64,000 bases of DNA, taken from positions 1 to 64,000 of the forward strand of contig JAJKFJ010021272.1 in NCBI GenBank assembly GCA_027382625.1, read 5' to 3'. A program made the position numbers and the translations under genes. The notes under the pieces were generated by a model that had not been told where the DNA came from, did not search any database, and was given only the letters and a program-made list of their open reading frames with translations. This document shows positions 8,501-44,978 of this stretch, piece after piece (within the stretch, counting starts at the first letter, position 1; every line of letters begins with the position of its first letter). Source of the stretch: Tetmemena sp. SeJ-2015. Its lineage: Eukaryota > Ciliophora > Spirotrichea > Sporadotrichida > Oxytrichidae.

Positions 8501-9094
8501 TATATAAAAATTCTCAGAAAAGTAGGCAAAGAGCTATTAAGAAAACCTTTTTCTTAAAATGCTTCATTCAATTTAAGTCAATAAATATAGTCCTATTTAT
8601 AATAAGTTTTTAACTATAAGGTTTATTACTGCATGTGAACGAAACAAACTTATTTAATCCCTTAATTTGTTTTTTCTGTAGAAAAAATATAGGATTGAAA
8701 TTGTATTTTATATAGTATTTTAATAGCCCCTCTCATTGATTTATCAATTCGAATAAATATATAAGTATGCTAAGAAAACTACATCAAGATGTAGTTAAGA
8801 CAAAAATGCCTCCATTAAATCAGATTAGGGTCTTTGTAAAAAACACTTCCATATCGTAAAAGACAAAAGACTCTCTTTTTTCAATAAATCATTTATTGTT
8901 ATTTTGAATTATTAAATTTAATTCTAATCTATATTAGAATTTATTGGGGGTCAAATAAGAGTTCACTGATTTCTCTTTCTAAAATAATGAAAATCAACAA
9001 ATGGCTCAAACATCCCTTATTATTAAATCTCAACATATTTCACTTGCCTTTACGGAAGGTATAATATAGTTGAGATTTTAATGGAAAATGAAAT

Positions 9095-9490
9095 AAATTT
9101 ATATATTAATTTAAAATGGAATAAATCAGCTGAAGTTGAAGTGTGTCCAATTTAAATAATTATTACACCATTCGATTCAGTATCAAATTTTAAGAACTTT
9201 TTATCCTTGCAACTTTTGTTTGGGAGCGCTCAGTACAGAGTTATAACCAACACAAGTTTTAATAGAAGTGTTATTTGGTCTTTAGGATAATGCGCGATTC
9301 ATATCTCGCTGCTGAGAGGTGCTGGGATGATGATCAAAGAAAAAACTCATATTAATTTTTTTAAGAGCTATCGAACAAGAGACATATCAGAGGGTAAATC
9401 TGTAATTTTAACTGCCACGATGTTGCAACTCTTCATTTATTATTTTAACCAATCACCGATTTTAATTAAATTTTCTACTATAATCTAGAT
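9095..9490 (+). pseudogene. Decayed copy of the 5' region of the FHA gene
   Basis: About 395 bp aligns by eye, in inverted orientation, with 42795-43190 (the 5' part of the FHA gene) at roughly 80% identity. The match covers both the noncoding part (GTGTGTCCAATTTAAATAAT is identical) and the exon. The exon copy keeps recognisable remnants (CAIHISLLRGAGMMIKE against CVSHIQLLRRALKMIKED) but has lost the acidic Asp/Glu block. No other FHA exons follow, so it cannot make the protein. It is a partial germline duplicate, possibly of one MDS with flanking sequence. Confidence 0.75.
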
Positions 9491-9777: not shown

Positions 9778-11977
9778 ATGAAGTGCCTTGGTCTGAAGAG
9801 TACAGCTGTCATAGCTTTATCTTCCCTATTGCTTATGGGTTGCTCTATCTAGAGTGATTCTAAAAAGCATTTAATGTTCGGCAAGCTCAATCATTTCCCT
9901 ATTAAGTCCGATCCAAACGTAGACAATATCAAAATTAAATTTATATTCAAAAGTTTTTCAATATAATTCATTAAATTAATCAAAATAAATAAAGTTATAA
10001 ATCTACTTATCTATATCTTATTTGTCAAATTTACTTCTATCAGCCACAATTTAATTACTTATATAACTAATTTTTAAATTTCTGCTTCAAAATTGCGTGA
10101 GTAAAAATTGTAGCAAATAATATTTGGTTTGAATGATGCTTGGAAAAGCTTGAAAGAAATAATTAAGGAAAACGGATACGCCGTGGAACAGCACTACGTT
10201 ACCACAGAAGATGGTTACATCTATAAATTCATTTAAGCATCTAAACATTGGTTAATTAATCTTGTCCTTGTTCAGACTGCCTGGCTTTGCAAATGAGACT
10301 GCTGTTATACAAGGTGACCCAATCAAGAAGCAATTTAGTTATTTATCATTTATTAGCCAGTTGTTCTACTTCAGCATGGTCTTGAAAGTGACGCCGCTCA
10401 GTGGTTAATCAACACACCCGACAAGGCCCACGCTTTTATCTTGGCTAATGAGGGCTATGACGTGTGGATGGGAAATAACAGAGGTTCTCAGTATGGCCTT
10501 TAACATAGGACTCAATTTAATAAAAATAACTTAAATTCATTGCTATTTTTTTCTCCAAGTTCCGCGCATGATCAGCACTGGGCCAACGGATTTTTCCGGC
10601 TACTGAGGAAAGCCGGTGGATTTCAATCGACATCAGTGAGTGCTAGCGACTGCTAGTTTGTCAGACCACGTAGAGATCCTCTCCCATCTCTCAAAGAGGG
10701 GGTAGTGCGGCATCACTAACTAACTGACGATGGGCTTTCACGGTGACGTGGCAAAACGGATCAAGGTTGTTACGCCTGTGAATTAACTTTAAATCGATTA
10801 AGTTATTTTATGCCTGTTAGTGGTGTTTAATTCCTAATAAATTAAATTAAAACTTAAATTCAACTCTTGATCCCACCAATGATGCAGACAAGCCTCTCTT
10901 CTTCGATTTTGATTTTGAAGAAATGGGCACCAAGGATCTTCCAGCTACTATAGATTACATTCAATCATATTTTTAGAGCAAAACATATTTAACCATTCTC
11001 TAAATCACTCAGTAAGAGAAGCTTTCATACATCGGTCACTCAGAGGGAACCACGTAATTCTTCATTGGTGCATCTATGCTGAAATATTTTAAGCATTCGC
11101 ATTTAAAAATAGTTAATTTAATGAATGATTACTTCACCCAAAAGGTGAATCTATTTGTGGCTTTAGCCCCAATCACAAGAATTAGTCACACAGCCTCAAC
11201 ATTACATAATTTATTTTCATAAACCTTACTCTGGTTAATGGCAGAGGATGTTGACTAACTGACTCATGTCCTCATCAATGACTATGGAATATAATATATC
11301 ATTATCCACAAGTCAGTGAATAATTTAAAGAATGTACGACATGTTCACTCCCTCATGGTTAGAGAGTGAAGTTGGTATCGCATTCTGTACAACTATCGGC
11401 CAATCTATTTGTGAATCTTTCTTCTCGCTCTTTACAGATCTGGACGTATCCGTAGATGATTTCTCAAGAGCAAAAACTTTCTTGACTCATCTTCCATCAG
11501 GTGCAGGATGGAGAAACTTTGTCCACTACGCTCAGATCATCACCTCAAACCGCTTCCAAAGATACGACTATGGTGAGGCAGCAAACATTCAACCAATAGA
11601 TTATTATAATAAAGTGTCTTCTATATTATTGAAGATATAAATTGAGAAATACAACACTGGAGTGCCTCCTCTTTATCCCATGGAAAATTTCAAGAATATT
11701 CCAATTGCTCTTTTGGGAGGACTTCTTGACGAAATGGGAACCCCTACTGATGTTGAGTGGACTTATGACACCCTCAAGCCTAATGGCAATCAACATAGAC
11801 AATGTTGTATATTCTTATTGCTGGTGTTATTTATTGAACGTTGTATTCTACTAGTAATACAAACTGGGTCACATGTCTTTCATCATTGCAAAGGACATGA
11901 GTTTCTTCTCAGTTGACACTGTCAAGCTTCTCAATTAGTACAAGACTAATGTGTTTGCTTAGTCATTCCTCAACTGA
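9778..11977 (+). CDS. Lysosomal-acid-lipase-type alpha/beta-hydrolase, cut by nine IESs
   Basis: Secreted or lysosomal neutral lipid/steryl ester hydrolase of the acid lipase family. The N-terminus looks like a signal peptide (MKCLGLKSTAVIALSSLLLM). Next comes the AB-hydrolase-associated lipase region (VEQHYVTTEDGYIYKF), then LLQHGLESDAAQW, GYDVWMGNNRGSQYG, the nucleophile elbow GHSEG (11034-11048), VALAPITR, a candidate Asp in LLGGLLDEMG, and the catalytic His in LGHMSF, ending at TGA 11975-11977. Nine insertions with direct-repeat ends interrupt the frame; removing them (748 bp in total) leaves exactly 484 codons including the stop. Gln is encoded by both TAA and TAG. IES-corrected length (483 aa) is somewhat longer than animal homologues. 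Confidence 0.9.
9943..10119 (+). other. IES 1 of the lipase gene (177 bp, pointer ATATT)
   Basis: ATATT occurs at 9943-9947 and 10120-10124 in the same codon phase. The intervening sequence is AT-rich and unlike any lipase; removal joins the signal-peptide region to the start of the lipase domain. The insertion happens to contain no in-frame TGA, so the boundary is less certain than for the other IESs. Confidence 0.6.
10228..10270 (+). other. IES 2 of the lipase gene (43 bp, pointer TTCA)
   Basis: TTCA at 10228-10231 and 10271-10274. Removal shifts the frame back and gives DGYIYKF-RLPGF, matching the family, where ETEDGYIL is followed closely by R(I/L)P. The segment has no GT..AG ends. Confidence 0.85.
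10329..10354 (+). other. IES 3 of the lipase gene (26 bp, pointer AGC)
   Basis: AGC at 10329-10331 and 10355-10357. Removal joins DPIKK to PVVLLQHGLE, the conserved PVV(F/L)LQHGL block. The insert does not begin with GT, so it is not a spliceosomal intron. Confidence 0.85.
10528..10850 (+). mobile_element. IES 4 of the lipase gene: retroposon-like element with 12-bp target duplication
   Basis: AACTTAAATTCA flanks the insert (10528-10539 and 10851-10862). Removing the element and one repeat copy restores the lipase frame, FNKNNLNSTLDPTND, ahead of FEEMGTKDLPATID. The 311-bp insert is far richer in G+C than its surroundings. Its right part (10734-10850) is closely related to the element at 31928-32046, and its end (TTATTTTATGCC ... 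TTTAATTCCTAAT) is shared with the element at 44393-44925. Repeat-length target duplications, shared 3' ends and differing 5' ends suggest target-primed reverse transcription (a SINE or truncated LINE). No reverse transcriptase is encoded here. Confidence 0.85.
10966..10983 (+). other. IES 5 of the lipase gene (18 bp, pointer CATATTT)
   Basis: CATATTT at 10966-10972 and 10984-10990. Removal shortens the loop before the nucleophile elbow to ...ILQITQQEKLSYIGHSEG, close to the family pattern TGQ-(K/Q)LSYIGHSQG. The length is a multiple of three and there is no stop inside, so the call rests on similarity and the 7-bp repeat. Confidence 0.65.
11080..11121 (+). other. IES 6 of the lipase gene (42 bp, pointer TGAA)
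   Basis: TGAA at 11080-11083 and 11122-11125. Removal gives GASMLNDYFTQKVNLFVALAP, the expected spacing between the helix after the nucleophile and the ALAP motif. ATG at 11076 and 11121 is an alternative pointer. Confidence 0.65.
11287..11317 (+). other. IES 7 of the lipase gene (31 bp, pointer GAATA)
   Basis: GAATA at 11287-11291 and 11318-11322. Removal changes phase so that NDYGI runs into the frame of YDMFTPSWLESEVG, which then stays open to the next IES. Confidence 0.75.
11587..11640 (+). other. IES 8 of the lipase gene (54 bp, pointer ATT)
   Basis: ATT at 11587-11589 and 11641-11643. Removal gives YDYGEAANIEKYNTGVPPLY, matching the conserved YDYG..N...Y....PP.Y block. ATA is an alternative pointer. 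Confidence 0.65.
11810..11843 (+). other. IES 9 of the lipase gene (34 bp, pointer TATTCT)
   Basis: TATTCT at 11810-11815 and 11844-11849. Removal shifts phase and joins CCIF to YQQYKLGHMSF, bringing in the catalytic histidine region. Confidence 0.8.
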
Positions 11978-31912: not shown

Positions 31913-32061
31913 ATTTAGTTAAATATATCTCTGTGCTTTCACGGTGACGTGGCACAACTGATCAAGGAGTTACGCCTGTGAATTAACTTTAAATCGATTA
32001 AGTTATTATATGCCTTATTAGGAGTTCACTTAATTCCTAATTAATTATTTAGTTAAATATA
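31913..32061 (+). mobile_element. 5'-truncated retroposon-like element with 15-bp target duplication
   Basis: ATTTAGTTAAATATA at 31913-31927 and 32047-32061 flanks a 119-bp insert. Almost the whole insert matches the right third of the element in the lipase gene: GCTTTCACGGTGACGTGGCA is identical, as is GTGAATTAACTTTAAATCGA. It ends CTTAATTCCTAATTAATT. It begins only a few bases before the shared block, so it is truncated at the 5' side relative to the lipase copy. It sits just upstream of ATG 32106, so it is not in coding sequence, but it lies within the candidate large IES. Confidence 0.85.
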
Positions 32062-32105: not shown

Positions 32106-33761
32106 ATGAACATTTTCTCCCGCAGAGTCTCGTTATCAAAACGAAGCCCTAAAAATTAAAACCAACAATCAATGCAAAGTACATAGGATAAACTTTAAAT
32201 AAGTAGTGGCAGACTCAACACGCTTGATTAAAGTGTGTCTCGAATTTCAAGAGCAAGTAAGTTTTTTCCTTATAAATTGCATTATTCTAGATATTGAGGA
32301 CTTAAGCATAAACTTAGACTAATCGCGATCCATTTACAATCAATTGATTTTATAAAATTTTAATGAAATAATTTACCTAAATTTTTATAATTACTTAAAT
32401 TTATTAGGAGTGATTGACTTTGGCTTCTTGAGGAAAAATTCTCAAGGTAAAATTAATTGCTTAAATTCAGTAATAATCTTGCTTCAGATAGAATGAAGAA
32501 ACAAGATTCTTATCGCAGGTTTGCCCAGGGACTCAATGAATAAAAAAACAGAAATAATCCGCACAAATCCAAGCACATCCCAGCAAACTCACAGTTTCTT
32601 TAAGCCTCACCAGATTATAACAAAAATAGCTTCCTAGATAACTAGTCAGCATTCAGAGAAATTAAATTCTAATTTTTAAATGGAGGAAGATATACTCAAG
32701 GAGTTGCAAGATATGCCTACGTTATTGAACGAAAGGCCTAACTTAGGAAAAACAGTTAAACCTATTTCCTAATTAATATAGATACAAACTTTTTAAGAGT
32801 GCTTACCTCAGGATGTCATTAATACATTTATTTTACTAAAGGATTTAACTCAGTAACGAATGACTTAGAAGAAATGCTGAGGCAGGCAAACTTTGATTCC
32901 CTTTGTAAGCTTAAAAATTCTATATTTCAAATAAAGACTTCGCTATTTTTATCAGACTTAATCTTAATCAATATGTTTTTACTTACATATGATAATAGTA
33001 CGTTCTCTTAACTAGTACTGAATAAGTGCTGGTTTTGAAAATGATTATTATTTACATTCCTCAAATTTTACTTTAATTATTTTATGTTTTTAGTGTAGCA
33101 ATCAAGTCACCACAGAGGTTTCCAAGCAGGTCCATATAAAGACAATAAATGTAAATTATGCTAATTTTATTTTAATAAGATAATAATACTAATTCATCTG
33201 AGAGATTCGAAAGCTTGAACGTAGCTTATCGATCCCCAATCAACTTGAGGCAAAATATCAACATTACCCCAATAGCAAAGATTATTTTTAAGAATGCCAA
33301 GGATCAAACAAGTTTCTAATAGTAAAACAGCGCTTTTTAAAATTTGAACAAAGGCTAGGGCCAAACAAACATACAATAAAAATAGCATTATTCTCGTTAA
33401 ATGTAAGTCAAATTATTGAGAAATTTGTTCCATCTTGGCTATTTCAAATTGTATTAAAAAATCTAAAATAGAAGCAATAATAAAAGAGGTAGTTCACATC
33501 ACTCATTAGAAAGTCTTATAAAACTCGCTAGAATCGAAGAATCGTTTGATGGATCGTAGTCTAATGCAAAACTCAGTTTCTAGTAAAACTTTTTTACTCT
33601 TATTTTTTCATAGAGTTAATCTACCAAAAAAGAATAATATAATAAATTATAAAGCATTTTAATTTAAGAACAAACCTCTTCAGAATGAGGAAGATTTAGT
33701 AGAGGATATACTCAACACTATTATGAGCCCAAGAGAAGAATATAAGCAGAATAAATATTGA
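32106..33761 (+). CDS. Unidentified protein, nested inside the LOTUS gene's candidate IES
   Basis: ATG 32106 opens MNIFSRRVSLSKRSPKN. Two GT-AG introns fit: 32257-32290 (34 nt), giving SRISRANIEDLSINLDQSRS, and 32447-32487 (41 nt), giving NSQDRMKKQDSYRRF. A further phase change near 32665 can be met by a GAA-flanked insert, leading to EDILKELQDMPTLLNERP. Later segments are TNDLEEMLRQANFDSL, SSHHSLESLIKLARIEESFD and a C-terminal NEEDLVEDILNTIMSPREEY, ending at TGA 33759-33761. Ser/Asn/Gln-rich with short helices; no domain recognised. It converges with the SAC gene 258 bp downstream. Confidence 0.6.
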
Positions 33762-41369: not shown

Positions 41370-43381
41370 TCAATGCTAGGAGGGAGGAATCATATTGACT
41401 TAGAATATAGTTTGGTTTGCCTTGAACACCATCTCGTTAAATATTTCGTAGTCCTCATTTAAGTATAGCCAAGTTCCATTTGTGCTAGGCTTGTTATGGA
41501 ATCCATCTATCAACACCCATGCTCCGGTCTCGCTGCATTTAATATGAGCCTGCGTCTTAGACAGCAGCTTATCGTCAATCCGGATATCGCAGTTAGGTGT
41601 GCGTCCAATAATGATCTCCTATCCCTCGTTTTTGAAATAACTATAGAGAATCAATAACTTTGTTGAGAAGTAAAGATATACTTACAAGATCTCTCCGGAG
41701 GATGGACCACCAAAAATCTTAAGCTTTAGCCTGTGTGCTTCAACATGTGCATTATAGCTGTCATAGTCATCACCCTAGTCTTTTAGCAAATTCACTACAA
41801 TATGGGCCTCTCCCACGTTAATTATCATATTATCTTTCAAAATCTAAAGAAGAATCAGTAAGTACTCTTAACTTACAGTTGGCGTTTCTTGCTTCACAAA
41901 GACTCCATGTCCTATTCCCAGATCTTTGATGAAGTATCTTAGCTGATCTGCATCAAACTTAATTTGAAAGTGTCTGCCCCTTTGCTGTTCGGCTGTTTGT
42001 GGGTTCTTGCTCGGAATTACAAAATCATTCACTACTTGCTTCTACAAAGAGGTTTTAATTTTTTTGAGTTGGATGCAATTTAGCATTAGATGACTTACTG
42101 GTTTAGTTGTAGTTTCTGCGTTAGGATCATGCGTTCCTTTCTTGACACTCTTCTTCCTTCCAAAATAAACGACTCCATCGATTATTCCTCTTAGAGAAGG
42201 ATGGCTTTGGATTCCTAGAGCGTTTATCTCTATTTTCATGCCTTTTTGAAGCGTGGCAGAGCTCACAACCTATAGAAATTATGATTGGGTCAAACATTTC
42301 CAATTATTGTTATTCAAATTTTTTGATACTTTATTTTTGCTTCAACAATAATAGTAAATTACTTACAGTTAATTCGAGCTTTGGGATTTGAGGAGCCAGC
42401 TTGATAAGTCTATTTTTGAGTTCAATATCCTAGCCTTCGAAAGCATTTTTGATCTGCTGTCTCTTATTTTTATCAGTGAGGACATCAATGCTCTCATTTG
42501 GGTCATTTCCAGCTGCATTTGAATTTTTATTATTCTTGTGTACAGCTGTGGTGCGGGAGTTTTGCTTGAAGAGTGCGGCCTCATCATTTAGATTGTTATT
42601 GTGATTTCTTTTGTTTACCTCTGTCATGTTCTCAACATTGTTATCATAGTTACAAAGGTTGTTGTTGCAGCACAGCTTCTATAACAAAAGATTTAGTAAT
42701 GCTCCAAGTTAAGAATATATCCATGCTTAAGAACATGATTTTGGAGAAATAAATGCTTCTCTTTATAAGTTTAAAGCAAAGTTCAGAGATTGTAATTGAC
42801 AACAACAAGATTATAGTAGGAAATTTATTTAAAATCAGTGATTGATTAAAATAATAAATGGAGAGTTGCAACTTCGTGTCAGTTTAAATCGCAGATTCAC
42901 CCCCTTATCTGTAGCTTGCTCGATAGTTTATTAAAAATAATATAATCTTCTTTAATCATCTTCAGAGCTCTTCTCAGCAGCTAGATATGACTCACGCATT
43001 CCTCGTCATCTTCATCATAATCTTCATTTAAACTTGTGTCGCGTATAAATCTTTACTGAGTGCTCCCATAAAAAAGTTACAAGGATCAAAAGTTCTTAAA
43101 ATTTGATGCTGAATCGAATCAAATAAGAATTATTTAAATTGGACACACTTCAACTGCCACTGATTTATTCTATTTTAATTTAATATCAAATTTATTTGTC
43201 TTTTTTAATTATATGCTCAGTTATAGTAGCAATTATACTTTAGTAAGATAAATGGCCTTAGAAAAGTTAACCTCATTCTGCAGAATATCGAACTAAGCAG
43301 ATTGATTTCCCACATTTATCTTATGAATATCCAGGTTCAAACGCGTTTACTTACCGAGAGATTGGAATTTTGCTAACCCAT
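41370..43381 (-). CDS. Protein with two FHA domains and a myristoylation-like N-terminus
   Basis: Forkhead-associated domains bind phosphothreonine peptides. ATG 43381-43379 gives MGQQNSNLS, with Gly2 and Ser6 fitting an N-myristoylation signal. Intron 43293-43354, then noncoding sequence, an acidic exon (LNEDYDEDDEECVSHI), an Asn-rich exon, and the FHA part with clean GT-AG introns at 42270-42366, 42042-42098, 41844-41876 and 41641-41685. FHA1 lies around VYFGRKKSVKKG, FVIPSKNP, RGRHFQIKF and YFIKDLGIGHGVFV. FHA2 is canonical: GIIIGRTPNCDIRIDDKLLS, KTQAHIKC, WVLIDG, KPSTNGTWLYL. TGA 41372-41370. In the FHA part all breaks are introns, with no IES needed. A decayed copy of its 5' region lies at 9095-9490. 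Confidence 0.88.
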
Positions 43382-43653: not shown

Positions 43654-44978
43654 TCAGATACCAGACTCGCCAACTTGATAATAACATTAAGGACACAAGT
43701 GCTTTACATTATAGCATCTCTTAATGCAAAAGGGCACACAGCAAAGAGGATAGCAAGCAAAGAAGCAGAAAACAATGCAAGCACACCACTGATTACCAGT
43801 GCATTCATACTTCAGCTTAGTTCTTTATTCTTTGTCAGTTTTACATTAAGGACACTTGAATTGCATAGGGACTCGTTTCCCGTAAACTCGCGGTAGGCGA
43901 ACAAATTTTCTTTGCTTCTCAGCTATTAAGAATTCTGTAAACTTTCCACTCTCTTTCGCCAAGTTATGATGAATAAATCCGATATAATAAAATTAAAAGT
44001 TCTTCTTACTAGATGATGCATTAAAAGATAAAGTGAATAATAATTGGTTAATTGCGTTGTTATTAGTATTTTCTTGATGTTCAATGGCTATGTGATTTTT
44101 ATAAGCTTGCTGTAGGGGTTGCGTCTCTCCAATGATGAGAGTCTTAGGTTTTTGAAAGTTATAAGGGACATTACTCTCGTTATCTAAGGCTTTCTTTTCT
44201 TCCTCTATCTCCATGTCTAGTGAGCCATCAAGGTTCTTCCTCTCCTCTTTGGATCGGTTTGCATCTTCAAAATGTAAAAGCACACAATATCCTTACTTTA
44301 GCTCTAAGAGGTATTTAGTATCTTGCTCTGAGAATTATGGTTGGGATGAGCATGGCGGGGACTGCCCTCTGTTACTATATTTTTATTGTTTGTAATTAAA
44401 GGGAATTAAAGGGCCCCCGGCATAAATAAGATAGGCCGTGACGTCAATGATATTGCTGTGACGCACTTATCTGACGCACACAAACCTACCAGCCGAATAG
44501 GGATATTAAACACGTGGCACCCCCGCCACCTCACATTCTGAGCAGAAGCCCCAGGCTTCTGCAGACCATCCAAAAAACCTAAAAGGAGAAAAAAATCCGG
44601 TAGCTTCGGACCGAGAGCAAGTCGCTGCTCCGTAGCGTCTGGCTTCGCTGTTCAGCTGCATGACTGAGTGTTTACCCATAGATCTCGTCCCTCCACGCCT
44701 ACAAGGATTAGGAGGGTGAGTGGGAACCACTCACCTTTGATTATCTCTCCAGTGAGCAGCTCAACCACCTTCCCCAGGGCTTCGGCTGCCATTATCCCTT
44801 GCCTCTTTTAAGCACTCACCCACCAGCCAATGGATTATCAAACCAGAAAGCCTTCAGGGAAAGGGCGACCGGTGCCTAGTGCCGGTCGTGTGCGTCCTGA
44901 ATTTTAACTTTCTAATTTAATACTTTTTTTATTGTTTGAATGATTAATTTTGTTGTTGCTTTCGTTTTCTTCCATCAT
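43654..44978 (-). CDS. LITAF-domain membrane-associated protein, first exon split by a retroposon-like element
   Basis: LITAF/CDIP-type domain proteins sit monotopically on the cytosolic face of endosomal/lysosomal membranes through a zinc-ribbon split by a hydrophobic stretch. Here: FKCPQCKTDKE, then NQWCACIVFCFFACYPLCCV, PFCIKRCYNVKHLCPQC, ending YYQVGESGI and TGA 43656-43654. The N-terminal region is acidic and disordered (DGSLDMEIEEEKKALDNE). ATG 44978-44976 (MMEENESNNKINHSNNK) is separated from the rest by an insert at 44380-44925. Removing it and a 32-nt intron (44265-44296, GTAAGG...GAAG) leaves 747 nt, 249 codons in one frame. The intron acceptor GAAG is unusual for this window. Confidence 0.8.
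44380..44938 (-). mobile_element. GC-rich retroposon-like element in the first exon of the LITAF gene
   Basis: TTTTTATTGTTTG at 44380-44392 and 44926-44938 flanks a 533-bp insert of strikingly high G+C. On the minus strand its end (CTTATTTATGCC, then TTTAATTCCCTTTAATTA) matches the 3' ends of the elements at 10540-10850 and 31928-32046; the rest differs from them, so it is a longer or separate family sharing a 3' end. It contains a perfect 7-bp stem (CGACCGG 44866-44872 / CCGGTCG 44882-44888). A minus-strand ORF at 44506-44730 resembles no known protein. Read through, the element puts a TGA in the LITAF frame; precise excision restores it. Confidence 0.8.

Follow-up and report, generated by a model that had tools for sequence, protein, structure and literature searches.

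The IESs derived from TBE, Tec and other DNA transposons, as treated in the Klobutcher-Herrick model and in passages of PMC4724952, PMC9797194 and PMC8384191, are insertions confined to the germline and situated within genes or close to them. TBE and Tec move by cut and paste, have terminal inverted repeats and make duplications of 3 bp, and the target duplication of TBE is given as ANT in a passage of PMC4724952. According to passages of PMC9797194, the joining of MDSs in Oxytricha is programmed by template RNAs. The same passages state that many TE insertions are located within IESs, which would agree either with IESs being hotspots of insertion or with TEs having generated the IESs. For hypotrichs, both answers to the question of whether TEs found IESs or shelter in existing ones are allowed there. 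In a literature search that reaches few subscription papers, none of the matches listed described hypotrich IESs founded by SINEs.

The elements described here are likewise insertions in or near genes of the germline, but they are retroposons flanked by target duplications of 9-19 bp. They share with SINEs, including the putative SINEs of the Paramecium germline (passages of PMC5405496), their short length, dispersal and lack of recognised coding capacity, as well as variable target duplications and the occurrence of several families with similar 3' tails. They differ from SINEs in being without convincing pol III boxes, tRNA or a notable Rfam match, in having an AT-rich or (TTA)n tail instead of poly(A), and in that no partner LINE was found among the loci read. 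One of them is located in a lipase gene, within a segment that resembles a hypotrich IES with a short pointer in its putative ACTC pointer, its AT-rich body of 26 bp and a boundary matched in gene copies, and that differs from such an IES in carrying a retroposon of 311 bp as cargo.

The window, which is the whole stretch of 64,000 nucleotides of Tetmemena sp. SeJ-2015 that was analysed, is germline (micronuclear) ciliate DNA, where TAA and TAG code for glutamine and genes are broken by short AT-rich segments. A preliminary description had placed a GC-rich element of 311 bp between two copies of one repeat in the coding region of the lipase gene, and two further elements with duplications of 15 and 13 bp elsewhere in the window. 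The coordinates and repeats of the first were confirmed and both of the others were located (Table 1). In comparison with the long form, whose common 5' end is CCGG, the lipase copy has lost some 4-5 bp at its start and nothing else. An intron reading of this element was rejected, as on inspection it has no GT at its start.

Table 1. Positions in the window of the lipase gene, its putative IES and the SINE-like elements
Feature	Position	Strand	Remarks
Lipase gene, germline version with several small IESs	9781-11977	+	Both ends set by reading; homologues carry PF04083/PF00561
Putative pointer ACTC, left copy	10510-10513	+	End of upstream MDS (CAT AGG ACT)
Putative pointer ACTC, right copy	10863-10866	+	Start of downstream MDS (CTT GAT CCC)
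Whole putative IES	10514-10862	+	Original 26 bp AATTTAATAAAAATAACTTAAATTCA, retroposon and second target duplication
SINE-like retroposon, long form	10540-10850	+	311 bp, GC 0.44
Left target duplication AACTTAAATTCA, within the putative older IES	10528-10539	+	
Right target duplication AACTTAAATTCA	10851-10862	+	Exact copy of the left one
Short form, same SINE-like family as 10540-10850	31928-32046	+	15-bp repeat ATTTAGTTAAATATA at 31913-31927 and 32047-32061
533-bp SINE-like element, another, young family	44393-44925	-	13-bp repeat TTTTTATTGTTTG at 44380-44392 and 44926-44938

The three elements had also been described as sharing their 3' ends. The short form is a clear homologue of the 311-bp element (102 of 117 alignment columns identical, 87%) and was the one relative found by BLAST and nhmmer over the whole window; the same searches missed the 533-bp element. 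For the latter, the likeness is reduced to a resemblance of the tails over a short stretch (TTATTTATGCC...TTTAATTCC), and three comparisons of these tails were equalled by 16, 51 and 70 of 2000 single-base shuffles. The 533-bp element is assigned to the minus strand because its (TTA)n-type tail shows the orientation.

The position of the IES ends is the central point at the lipase locus. The earlier proposal was that the retroposon had turned into an IES immediately, with its 12-bp target duplication serving as the pointer. The 12-bp repeat is exact, and excision of the 311-bp element with one copy of AACTTAAATTCA does keep an open frame, as had been claimed, but ten codons missing from the homologues are left in it. 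The join at the target duplication gives HRT-QFNKNNLNST-LDPTND, whereas the ACTC join gives HRT directly followed by LDPTND, and the homologues mostly show H-x-T/S-L-D/N at this site, without the ten residues. Among 98 homologues found, 83 span the site, and the ACTC join scores higher in 80 of them, while the target-duplication join is favoured by the remaining 3. P0001, at 88% the closest homologue, stops just before the site, and P0002 (65%) is the closest to extend across it.

The gene has a second copy (C2034:20851-21225), which is without the retroposon and is 92-93% identical to the window on either side of the site. It reads GACTC-AATTTAATAGAAATAATATTAAAATCA-ACTCTTGAT, and the window minus the element reads GACTC-AATTTAATAAAAATAACTTAAATTCA-ACTCTTGAT. 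The segment between the ACTC repeats is AT-rich in both, with 27 bp in C2034 and 26 bp in the window, and 23 of 27 aligned columns agree, too few letters to be weighed against the flanks. Since C2034 keeps this segment in the absence of a retroposon, the IES would be older than the retroposon, which landed inside it. Together with its pointer the segment measures 31 bp in C2034, so that retaining it would shift the frame; this argument is weak by itself because further indels also break the frame of C2034, a copy that may be in decay. The corresponding remnant of 30 bp happens to be open and to keep the frame in the window, which gives a macronuclear gene that retains it a slight probability. 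In two distant copies (L098 and L099, on C3480 and C1012), which are near-identical to each other and count as one case, the homology starts one base before ACTCTTGATCC and the preceding sequence is unrelated. The next IES upstream in the window, as read from P0001, has a similar look, being AT-rich and shorter than 30 bp with a 3-bp pointer.

Both the homologue scores and the second copy place the ends of the lipase IES elsewhere than at the target duplication, whereas the ACTC-bounded segment has a pointer repeat at both ends and its removal gives the conserved protein. With ten leftover codons that are absent from the homologues (80/83) and a flanking AT-rich segment that is present as an IES without any retroposon in the second copy, the use of the target duplication as pointer at this gene is highly improbable, even though it would leave an open frame. 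ACTC is probably the pointer. The retroposon is very likely nested in a pre-existing IES of 26 bp and removed as its cargo by recombination at ACTC, a junction deduced from the homologues and the second gene copy; the repeat family, its target duplications, the empty site with an IES in the second copy and the junction at the level of the protein are shown by the data.

According to the nested reading, a non-autonomous SINE-like retroposon would have entered a lipase gene in the germline of a hypotrich, and its target would have been the AT-rich IES of 26 bp between two ACTC pointers, not coding DNA. The target duplications and tails suggest that insertion proceeded by target-primed reverse transcription with a LINE-type reverse transcriptase. 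Recombination between the ACTC pointers would then eliminate the retroposon and both target duplications along with the older IES, and the macronuclear join would read CATAGGACTCTTGATCCC. If the retroposon is cargo of an older IES, its target duplication has no role in its removal. The lipase locus would in this way settle the matter for a single insertion as a case of shelter, the IES having come first.

The genome (contigs of 146 Mb in total) was searched with all three elements, a check that the preliminary description had recommended, and each of them proved to be a dispersed repeat of many copies (best 40 of 608 first-look candidates for the long form, best 40 of 600 for the short form and best 40 of 703 for the 533-bp element). 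For the count of duplications in the first family, 77 fetched loci were reduced to 59 copies by removing those with identical flanks, and at least two pairs among the 59 (L047/L049 and L057/L059) still look like single insertions on two contigs. A clear adjoining target duplication of 9-19 bp (median 14) was present in 47 of these 59 copies, some of the counted cases being doubtful, such as L005, in which the repeat matches the SINE tail. When the left and right flanks of different copies were paired as a control, the count was 2-7 of 59 (mean 4.6, 20 rounds). Clear target duplications were found in 16 of 21 copies of the 533-bp family, L103 being a doubtful one, against a mispaired mean of 4.65 (range 1-9 of 21, 20 rounds). 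Taken as a class, the repeats are thus more frequent than expected by chance. Among the matches listed, 39 other full or near-full matches of the 533-bp family are 96-98% identical.

The first family consists of two forms: the long form starts with CCGGTTGCTATTTTTTC, and the short form, about 120 bp in length, starts with ACGTSTGGGC. In a set of 30 loci retrieved by a search with the short form, the 5' start falls at position 192 of the long element in 20 and at position 1 in 7, while the other three start at 23, 119 and 163; these proportions are not genome-wide frequencies because the searches return the best-scoring copies. The different 5' ends, which had been ascribed to 5' truncation, are mainly those of subfamilies, to which a few truncated copies are added. 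The retroposon nature of the elements is borne out by their many copies, the target duplications of 9-19 bp and the AT-rich or (TTA)n tails, and the family of the lipase element is a large and new SINE-like one.

Two observations concern the arrangement of 533-bp elements. Two full elements lie within 3.3 kb at C1710:26389-29701, with a 74% identical piece between them. The copies L103 and L113 have a common right flank and different left flanks, a pattern that may come from recombination or misassembly.

The assembly is partly redundant, and the copy pairs are about 88-96% identical at the four loci for which a second copy is available. Five insertions were probed for such a copy, and an empty one was found for the lipase gene, CLU, C3013 and C4953 but none for C2615 (L116). 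The empty copy of C4953 (L120) is on C971, where the site can be read either as coding DNA or as an IES of 21 bp. C4953, C3698 and C2499 carry one and the same insertion, with 100% identity over the 129-bp flank queried, and C971 is empty (L120, L124-L126). The insertion on C3296 (L104) has the look of a nested case in what we take to be a lysozyme-like gene, and its flanking frame had no match in Pfam. Scans of flanking frames against Pfam (7, 8, 10 and 10 proteins) gave matches above the cut-off only for CLU, Piwi (L034) and IBR (L011).

Two of these insertions present the opposite situation to that of the lipase gene, namely a retroposon in coding DNA with an empty sister that shows ten silent codon differences, and the question of founding is testable there. 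At C3287:720-1264, a long-form copy lies between two copies of ATTAAGGTGAATAA inside conserved CLU coding sequence (PF13236, E 5.4e-18). The sister copy, C2386:431-661, is continuous and IES-free at the site, where it reads GAGCAGTTGAACATTAAGGTGAATAAGGTGATTGAT, and over 93 codons the two differ in 10 synonymous and 0 nonsynonymous codons (L053, L100). Six CLU homologues among the matches listed (P0099-P0104, of which P0099 and P0100 are 97% identical) pass through the insertion site without extra residues. At C3013:20478-21306, coding DNA is interrupted by a 533-bp element with a copy of AAGAAATTCCAATA on either side. Its sister copy, C4234:900-1600, is continuous at the site and 95% identical (L108, L123), and of 86 codons 10 differ synonymously and 3 nonsynonymously, including a CAG/TAG pair, both glutamine in this code. 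The stretch on C3013 is called a gene because of this codon pattern, since no relatives of its protein were found.

At both loci the element is placed directly in coding DNA, the empty copy has no IES and the target duplication is the only pointer in evidence. For an intact version of these copies to arise in the macronucleus, removal would have to go through that duplication, and at CLU it would produce an element-free join at GAACATTAAGGTGAATAAAGTG. We lean slightly towards the reading that the retroposons of CLU and C3013 lie directly in the coding part of an MDS and that the target duplication is the pointer for their excision, so that retroposons may found IESs. The evidence for this is the location of the element within conserved CLU coding sequence, together with a continuous C2386 that differs by silent changes only, and the continuity of C4234 with mostly silent codon differences. 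Against it, the pattern of silent changes mostly predates the insertions and is therefore no proof that the retroposon-bearing copies still work.

There is another explanation, in which the retroposon-bearing copies of CLU and C3013 are broken germline alleles or duplicates and the macronuclear genes derive from the empty copies only. The finding of an empty second copy for four of the five insertions probed is in agreement with it, whereas no other lesion was seen in the stretches compared (93 codons of CLU and 86 of C3013), and we regard it as a tentative but real possibility. As to excision at the target duplication, where joining is programmed by template RNAs a new insertion that is absent from the old macronucleus would, in our own reasoning, require no more than terminal repeats. 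A paper of 1993 reportedly described that TBE elements are removed precisely together with a target duplication. The chances seem evenly balanced that in this hypotrich SINE-like retroposons enter MDS coding sequence directly, as at C3287 and C3013, and are tolerated because a 14-bp target duplication at once acts as pointer for their precise removal. If this is true, retroposition would join DNA transposons as another source of IESs, alongside the hiding of retroposons in existing IESs, as proposed for the lipase gene.

The origin of the SINE-like elements was sought in their head, their tail and a possible partner LINE. In the short consensus, the search for an RNA polymerase III promoter gave no box B and a box A with 1 mismatch, equalled by 197 of 1000 shuffles; no tRNA was found in this consensus, and Rfam gave no match of note for the elements. 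An origin from a tRNA or a known RNA was left unsupported by the tRNA, Rfam and promoter-box searches. A plasmid collection gave no match.

The genome does contain LINEs, with 14 reverse transcriptase matches. The preliminary description had advised looking for a LINE with the same 3' end, and no LINE terminating in the SINE tail came to light in the loci read, which included further 3' stretches for some of the 14 matches. Comparison of the SINE consensus with the sequence within 1.5 kb of the 14 matches gave a best E of 0.17, and the further 3' stretches of other reverse transcriptase loci were without TTAATTCC or a matching tail. A genome pattern search for the SINE tail followed by (TTA)n returned one match, with 2 mismatches. 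The 3' end of one LINE family is (TTA)n, a feature also of some first-family copies and of many 533-bp elements, but this LINE family lacks the unique SINE tail.

Several features of the LINE loci were recorded along the way. A LINE family with reverse transcriptase (L078-L083, L086) has the 3' end ...TCTAAAATGCGTTG(TTA)n, and some of its loci match one locus in one flank and another locus in the other flank, so that they are perhaps chimeric contigs. A second LINE family is made up of L085, L087-L089 and L091 with the continuations L092-L096 and L127; it has RVT_1 matches, and its upstream frames are endonuclease-like in look. In the window, positions 9063-9376 and 43031-43225 are about 75% identical, in opposite orientations, to one stretch of the reverse transcriptase locus L084 and are remnants of another repeat. 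Positions 32980-33084 of the window match a stretch close to the 3' part of the LINE loci L095 and L096 with an identity of about 85%.
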